Source of the DNA: Flavobacteriaceae bacterium | GTDB taxonomy: Bacteria; Bacteroidota; Bacteroidia; Flavobacteriales; Flavobacteriaceae | Reading direction: 5' to 3' | Assembly (NCBI GenBank): GCA_009886625.1 | Contig: QXZA01000023.1 | Span: 20,627-84,626 of the forward strand | DNA length: 64,000 bases | Part shown: in pieces, positions 10,683 through 10,866 of the stretch | Layout of the letters: each line of letters opens with the position of its first letter | Position numbering within the stretch: position 1 is the stretch's first letter | The notes under the pieces: model-generated | Database searches by the model: none | Told to the model about the DNA's origin: nothing | Seen by the model: only the letters and a program-made list of their open reading frames with translations | Translations under genes and position numbers: made by a program

Positions 10683-10714
10683 AAATAAAAAAAGCGGACC
10701 CATCGGTCCGCTTT
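10683..10714 (-). terminator. Strong intrinsic terminator
   Basis: On the minus strand a perfect 10-bp stem (arms 10705-10714 and 10691-10700, containing AAAGCGGACC) with a 4-nt loop is followed by a T-rich run. It lies after the 21-codon ORF at 10731-10796 and before the oxygenase start at 10673, so it either ends a tiny transcript or acts as an attenuator for the oxygenase gene. Confidence 0.85.
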
Positions 10715-10730
10715 GTATAGATAAGGAAAA

Positions 10731-10796
10731 TTACAGTGGCGCTACTTGCGTAGGCGCCTGCTGTTCACGATTCCTCAAATGATTTTCATAAAACAT
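10731..10796 (-). CDS. 21-residue microgene with extended Shine-Dalgarno
   Basis: The ORF reads from ATG 10796 to TAA 10731 and encodes a hydrophilic 21-residue peptide (MFYENHLRNREQQAP, then TQVAPL). Upstream is a 13-nt stretch (TAGAAAGGAGGTG, 10813-10801) complementary to the 3' end of Bacteroidota 16S rRNA, with 6 nt between the GGAGG core and ATG. Such extended pairing is exceptional in a phylum in which most genes lack any Shine-Dalgarno site. A second mini-ORF (MFNLM, 10828-10811) ends inside it. Downstream comes the strong terminator, upstream the promoter box at 10859-10866. The peptide has no recognised relatives. It may be a regulatory leader, a small gene in its own right, or mainly an RNA. 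Confidence that it is translated is moderate. Confidence 0.5.
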   Translation of the reverse strand: MFYENHLRNREQQAPTQVAPL

Positions 10797-10800
10797 AAGA

Positions 10801-10813
10801 CACCTCCTTTCTA
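10801..10813 (-). promoter_or_regulatory. Extended Shine-Dalgarno sequence
   Basis: On the minus strand the 13 nt TAGAAAGGAGGTG are complementary to the 16S rRNA 3' tail. They lie 4 nt before the start codon of the 21-codon ORF, at ideal core spacing. The genes in this window otherwise show few such sites, the yceD start (GGAGG before 14935) being another exception. Confidence 0.65.
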
Positions 10814-10858
10814 CATTAAATTAAACATAGCTGTTGTCACAGCATTAACTTCTCGTCT

Positions 10859-10866
10859 CAAATATA
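10859..10866 (-). promoter_or_regulatory. Promoter -7 box for microgene
   Basis: TATATTTG on the minus strand is a full match to the Bacteroidota -7 consensus TAnnTTTG. A matching -33 TTG is not seen at the usual 19-20 nt distance. Transcription would start near 10852, giving a unit of about 160 nt that ends at the terminator near 10690. Confidence 0.5.

Follow-up and report, generated by a model that had tools for sequence, protein, structure and literature searches.

The window, by which we mean the whole 64,000-nt stretch of flavobacterial DNA that was analysed, carries on its minus strand a compact unit (10866–10687) that lies between a Na+/H+ antiporter gene and an oxygenase gene (Table 1). 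In the 5'→3' direction the unit comprises the TATATTTG box, the GCTGT-GACA-ACAGC hairpin, TAGAAAGGAGGTGTCTT, a 21-codon ORF, TTTTCCTTATCTA and an intrinsic terminator. The transcription start is expected near 10855–10850 (approximately 10853), and we infer an RNA gene of about 165 nt that begins at this predicted start and ends with the terminator at 10687. Compared with shuffled sequences, it folds more stably (z-score −3.7).

Table 1. Features of the element and its flanks, in window coordinates
Feature	Position	Strand	Remarks
Antiporter stop codon	10892	minus	Na+/H+ antiporter, PF00999; upstream neighbour
−7 promoter box TATATTTG, Bacteroidota TAnnTTTG type	10859..10866	minus	TAnnTTTG in 40/45 distinct sequences
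5' hairpin GCTGT-GACA-ACAGC	10830..10843	minus	compensatory changes in 4/6 pairs
Mini-ORF ATGTTTAATTTAATGTAG	10828–10811	minus	kept in 17/45 sequences
Extended Shine-Dalgarno (SD) TAGAAAGGAGGTGT	10800..10813	minus	14 contiguous nt complementary to the 16S 3' tail
21-codon ORF MFYENHLRNREQQAPTQVAPL, stop TAA	10731..10796	minus	open in 45/45 sequences
Helix P3	10722..10777	minus	RNAalifold within the genus and between-genus compensatory changes
Helix P4, hairpin in the 3' half of the ORF (ACAG...CTGT)	10733..10764	minus	compensatory changes
Post-stop segment TCCTTATCTA	10718..10727	minus	exact in 40/45 sequences
Intrinsic terminator, 10-bp stem, GATG loop, T run	10687..10714	minus	stem covaries; 10 perfect pairs at 10714–10691, T run reaching 10687
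Oxygenase ATG	10673	minus	isopenicillin-N-synthase-type 2OG-Fe(II) oxygenase, PF14226 + PF03171

A sequence-only reading of this DNA had already listed the promoter box, the 21-codon ORF and the perfect 10-bp terminator, all of which are present, together with 13 nt complementary to the 16S 3' end, which in fact extend to 14. The second mini-ORF that it had noticed is also there, but it is conserved in a minority of the homologues only. Conservation in relatives, on which that reading depended, was borne out by a DNA search for the interval in 60 relatives, 37 of them congeners (marine Flavobacteriaceae of the MS024-2A group). The interval was found in 33 of the 37, with identity starting at the −7 box and stopping at the terminator; the spacer upstream is unconserved, and the TAnnTTTG box sits within it without other conservation. 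The four congeners lacking a match are incomplete genomes, and in one of these (G021) the contig breaks off within the antiporter gene.

A covariance model (R1), run against 397 genomes, retrieved the element from eight further genera of the family (E-values of 1e-9 to 1e-28), whose element-bearing genomes are small (1.3–2.2 Mb). A second model (R2), applied to 396 genomes of the order, gave only weak matches outside this clade (best E-value 2.7e-4), none of them with the SD. Several relatives are devoid of the element, which must therefore be dispensable. No score above the gathering cut-off was obtained in Rfam release 15 for the window and for the loci of six relatives, the sub-threshold matches being due to chance. 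A phage-borne copy was considered and rejected: GAAAGGAGGTGTCTTATG matches three IMG/VR contigs, but the surroundings are unrelated and do not match the RNA model, and a hairpin-plus-SD pattern found no match in IMG/VR. One metagenome-assembled genome (G788, UBA11891) contains two different versions of the element (L163 and L165), one of the MS024-2A type, probably due to contamination of the bin.

The 5' hairpin, P3, P4 and the terminator were all recovered by RNAalifold from a plain MAFFT alignment of 29 congeners. Among 36 distinct sequences from nine genera, 94% of the cells pair, double changes occur in 15 of the 29 pairs, and the covariation score is 0.322, as compared to 0.181 for shuffled alignments and 0.04–0.085 when the partners are slid; as the model had been used to fit this alignment, the score and the pair counts lean towards it. 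Covariation is seen both in the hairpins within the ORF and in that of the terminator. In P3, codons 7–9 of the ORF (TGAGGAA, 10777–10771) pair with TTCCTTA (10728–10722), located 3' of the stop codon, and compensatory changes between genera (e.g., in L069, L070, L072 and L077) can be recognized by inspection, as in AAGGATTGATTC/GAATCAAATCCTT (L070), AAGAAT/ATTCTT (L069) and GGAATG/CATTCC (L077). The loops are also strongly constrained, the GACA loop of the 5' hairpin being near-invariant and the terminator loop conforming to [C/T]GATGG in 44 of 45 sequences.

The TCCTTATCTA segment constitutes the 3' strand of P3, but it also resembles the 16S tail and is able to pair with the ORF's own SD. 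When this pairing was forced in the 35 sequences computed, many gave structures near or at the minimum energy. Nevertheless, a pure switch between the SD and an anti-SD mimic (TAGAAAGGA with TCCTTATCTA) was discarded. TATCTA persists even in sequences whose SD no longer contains TAGA, and L069 lacks the pairing; P3 thus has better support as the partner of TCCTTATCTA. By eye, the end of the ORF (GGTCCGCT) is partly complementary to the 5' arm of the terminator in some sequences, the window's own not being among them.

The ORF was compared across 45 distinct sequences. Its length is 19–21 codons in 44 of them; in the remaining one (L034) the usual stop is lost and reading continues to 25 codons. 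No internal stop was found in the 31 ORFs of 20 codons, whereas 8.4 would be expected upon column shuffling and none of 2000 shuffles reached zero; since the test ignores shared ancestry, we take this as an indication rather than a probability. Of the two alternative frames, one is closed in 44 of 45 sequences and the other in all 45.

The encoded peptide, in contrast, appears free to vary, with ten different residues at codon 4 and an unconserved C-terminus. Among 24 unique single-base codon variants at codons 2–9, 4 are synonymous and 20 non-synonymous, against 5.2 synonymous changes expected under neutrality, so there is no sign of purifying selection on the peptide. Y3, L7, R8 and N9 are fairly constant, but codons 7–9 lie in P3. 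Hence translation seems to be conserved, whereas the peptide product does not.

These data bear directly on the idea that the element is simply the mRNA of a functional micropeptide (M[SF]YxNHLRNxRQQxP...) produced under bS21 shortage. Such an idea would account for an ORF that is always open, with a conserved start, interchangeable stop codons (TAA, TAG and TGA) and frequent Y3, H6, L7, R8 and N9 at the N-terminus. However, the lack of a synonymous excess, the variability at codon 4 and at the C-terminus, and the location of the constant codons within a base-paired helix all speak against it, as does the absence of any Pfam or NCBIfam match; we consider a functional micropeptide improbable.

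Dual-function small RNAs such as RNAIII/hld and SgrS/SgrT are terminator-ended RNAs with one short ORF preceded by an SD. Our element is likewise small, ends in a terminator and has one short ORF with an SD; the TAnnTTTG box (in 40 of 45 sequences) and the covarying terminator stem further suggest that it has a promoter and a terminator of its own. It differs in that the peptide is unconserved and the ORF itself folds into a conserved hairpin. The element might also be viewed as a trans-acting RNA that pairs with mRNAs through its exposed GACA and GATG loops and TCCTTATCTA, with the ORF and SD serving just to load ribosomes or to stabilize the RNA. The near-invariance of the loops, unusual for a terminator loop, and the presence of a dedicated promoter box and terminator are in line with this proposal, which alone does not explain why the ORF is kept open up to a fixed stop. 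We rate it as unlikely, on a par with the micropeptide; both are still live competitors of the preferred reading.

As to the downstream neighbour, the oxygenase gene adjoins the element in the window's genus and in some other genera. The distance from the T run to the oxygenase ATG is 13 nt in the window (10687–10673) and about 6–20 nt across the genus, too short to accommodate a further promoter; expression of the oxygenase in the window's genus therefore probably relies on read-through of the terminator. This proximity could suggest that the element is an attenuation leader for the oxygenase, as had been proposed from the sequence. Leader-peptide attenuators of the trp or his type indeed resemble the element in that a short ORF, itself containing hairpins, precedes an intrinsic terminator. 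The element, however, lacks a run of regulatory codons and a conserved downstream gene. At L034, L051, L062, L069–L072, L074 and L077–L079, which represent about ten lineages, the next gene is not the oxygenase but an unrelated one, in several cases on the opposite strand, yet box, SD, ORF and terminator are all retained. Furthermore, inspection of the alignment by eye disclosed no consistent antiterminator pairing, and L067 shows a TATCTTTG box between the terminator and the oxygenase. Attenuation of the oxygenase is thus rejected as the general role, and we regard an attenuation leader as very improbable overall.

The upstream neighbour is more constant, as the antiporter gene precedes the element almost everywhere. 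The element starts about 20–30 nt after the antiporter stop codon and its terminator, the first one open to the antiporter, probably serves that gene too. Despite this arrangement, it is hardly credible that the element is a 3'-UTR device governing stability or localization of the antiporter mRNA, because its own −7 box is conserved, one genome (G013) carries it with box, SD, ORF and terminator intact between riboflavin synthase and oxygenase genes while the antiporter stands on another contig with no element behind it, and three others (G063, G158 and G241) have the antiporter but no element. On the basis of these four genomes, a dependence on the antiporter was rejected.

The antiporter tree is best read as one old association followed by several losses, a reading that needs five changes on a tree in which many forks are weak. 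On this tree G330 groups with G158, from which the element was lost. The copy in G330 (L079, G330:C2:36784-36957) is degenerate, with the SD cut to GAAAGGAAGTG, TCCTTATCTA lost and an imperfect terminator; judged by its sequence, it is a natural decay intermediate. From its genomic contexts, the element is thus a gene of its own, neither the leader of one neighbour nor the tail of the other. The sequence-only reading had also suggested a new micro-operon, which holds in the sense of an autonomous single small-RNA gene, but not with regard to the unconserved second mini-ORF.

The most distinctive feature of the element is its SD. A search with the 16S-tail pattern GGATCACC gave no match, the flavobacterial tail being GGAACACC; because the 16S genes of relatives end in GGAACACCTCCTTTCTAGAG, the complementarity extends over 14 contiguous bases. 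The duplex with the tail ACACCTCCTTTCTA has a predicted energy of −22.5 kcal/mol, well beyond what is used to define an extended SD (a contiguous helix of 9–13 bp, below −13 kcal/mol, 5' of AUG), while the window's 49 ORFs of 150 aa or more reach −11.5 kcal/mol at best. Complementarity covers at least 12 contiguous nt in 37 of 45 homologues and at least 10 in 42 of 45; L071, for instance, has the same TAGAAAGGAGGTGTCTTATG. Only 0.05 chance occurrences of the 13-mer AGAAAGGAGGTGT are expected per 1.9-Mb genome.

In Flavobacteriales, rpsU, which codes for bS21, has been described as typically the sole gene with a strong SD (PMC9976891). In the genome to which the window belongs, rpsU is found apart from the element, on a different contig (G000:C19); it has a TATATTTG box of its own and an SD of −19.9 kcal/mol, weaker than that of the micro-ORF; the element's ORF does not encode bS21. 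AAAGGAGG occurs 3–10 nt from an ATG at 18 sites of this genome (G000), and among these only rpsU and the micro-ORF combine the full AAAGGAGGTG with a credible start context. In two marine genera with small genomes, g101 (G140, and a second copy in G348; loci L118 and L130) and g85 (G124; locus L129), rpsU has lost the extended SD that is reported as typical of Flavobacteriales. The corresponding duplex amounts to about −2 kcal/mol in G140 and G124, and the leader in G348 looks the same, but the micro-ORF SD retains −22.7 and −17.0 kcal/mol in g101 and g85, respectively. Thus, the element does not simply mirror rpsU, and its connection with the bS21 circuit is not necessarily the same in all genomes.

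Bacteroidia ribosomes sequester the 16S tail in a pocket formed by bS21, bS18 and bS6 and, in Flavobacterium johnsoniae, ribosomes lacking bS21 select mRNA with an extended SD and translate rpsU, which is thereby autoregulated (PMC9976891). The SD of the element's sole conserved ORF (19–21 codons) would pair with essentially the whole 16S 3' tail; because that tail is normally held in the pocket, translation of the micro-ORF is expected to fall chiefly to 30S subunits whose tail is free, such as those without bS21. Binding and passage of these ribosomes would melt P3 and P4, freeing or covering TCCTTATCTA. Given that selection keeps the open ORF and the hairpins rather than the peptide, ribosome binding or passage is most likely the output, and any regulatory consequence would arise because the RNA senses 30S subunits with an exposed tail or serves as a decoy for them.

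We put at about even chances the reading that the element, as an autonomous small RNA gene, relies for its translation on bS21-poor 30S subunits with an exposed tail and serves as such a sensor or decoy. We advance more tentatively, at somewhat less than even chances, the fuller proposal of a new RNA family that senses or titrates free-tail 30S subunits by translating an unimportant peptide, and that would be a stand-alone second member of the extended-SD regulon, of which rpsU has been regarded as the sole member. Among the three roles suggested by the sequence-only reading (attenuation leader, micro-operon or sensor of the free 16S tail), the sensor appears to fit best, because the SD is the strongest found in the genome and the ORF is kept open in the absence of peptide conservation.

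In several respects the element resembles the rpsU mRNA of F. johnsoniae (PMC9976891), whose SD also pairs with nearly the whole 16S tail and which has a TAnnTTTG box; by analogy, selective use by free-tail ribosomes is expected for the element as well. Unlike that mRNA, the element does not encode a ribosomal protein but an ORF of about 20 codons without peptide conservation, is a structured RNA with its own terminator and a stronger SD, and is maintained in genomes whose rpsU has lost the SD.

Another precedent is SprF1 of S. aureus, a ribosome-binding antitoxin RNA that is proposed to act by contacting ribosomes. The element is similarly a small RNA proposed to act via ribosome contact, but it has no toxin partner, belongs to a host of a different phylum and would make its contact through a textbook SD that precedes an ORF.

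A literature search yielded no description of such an RNA element. Extended SDs of the rpsU type and small RNAs that carry an ORF are both known kinds; within the literature searched, their combination in an autonomous family that is absent from Rfam appears to be new. According to published work, SD-dependent control in Flavobacteriales is confined to rpsU, but an ORF that is not annotated would have escaped the genome-wide screen of gene starts used there (PMC9976891). Since the element has an SD stronger than that of rpsU and is kept even where rpsU has lost its own, the pool of free-tail ribosomes may have a second dedicated customer, and the question of what bS21-poor ribosomes are for becomes directly testable with one 165-nt gene.

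A different extended SD, GAAAGGAGGTGTAAAATATG, was observed around position 1500 (minus strand) at two loci, L142 (G201) and L162 (G380), of larger-genome Flavobacteriaceae. It precedes a gene for a 41-aa basic protein (MAKDSEGRKYNRIPGYTK..), with the same neighbouring genes in both genomes; this gene is a further candidate for a strong-SD gene other than rpsU, possibly located on a mobile island.
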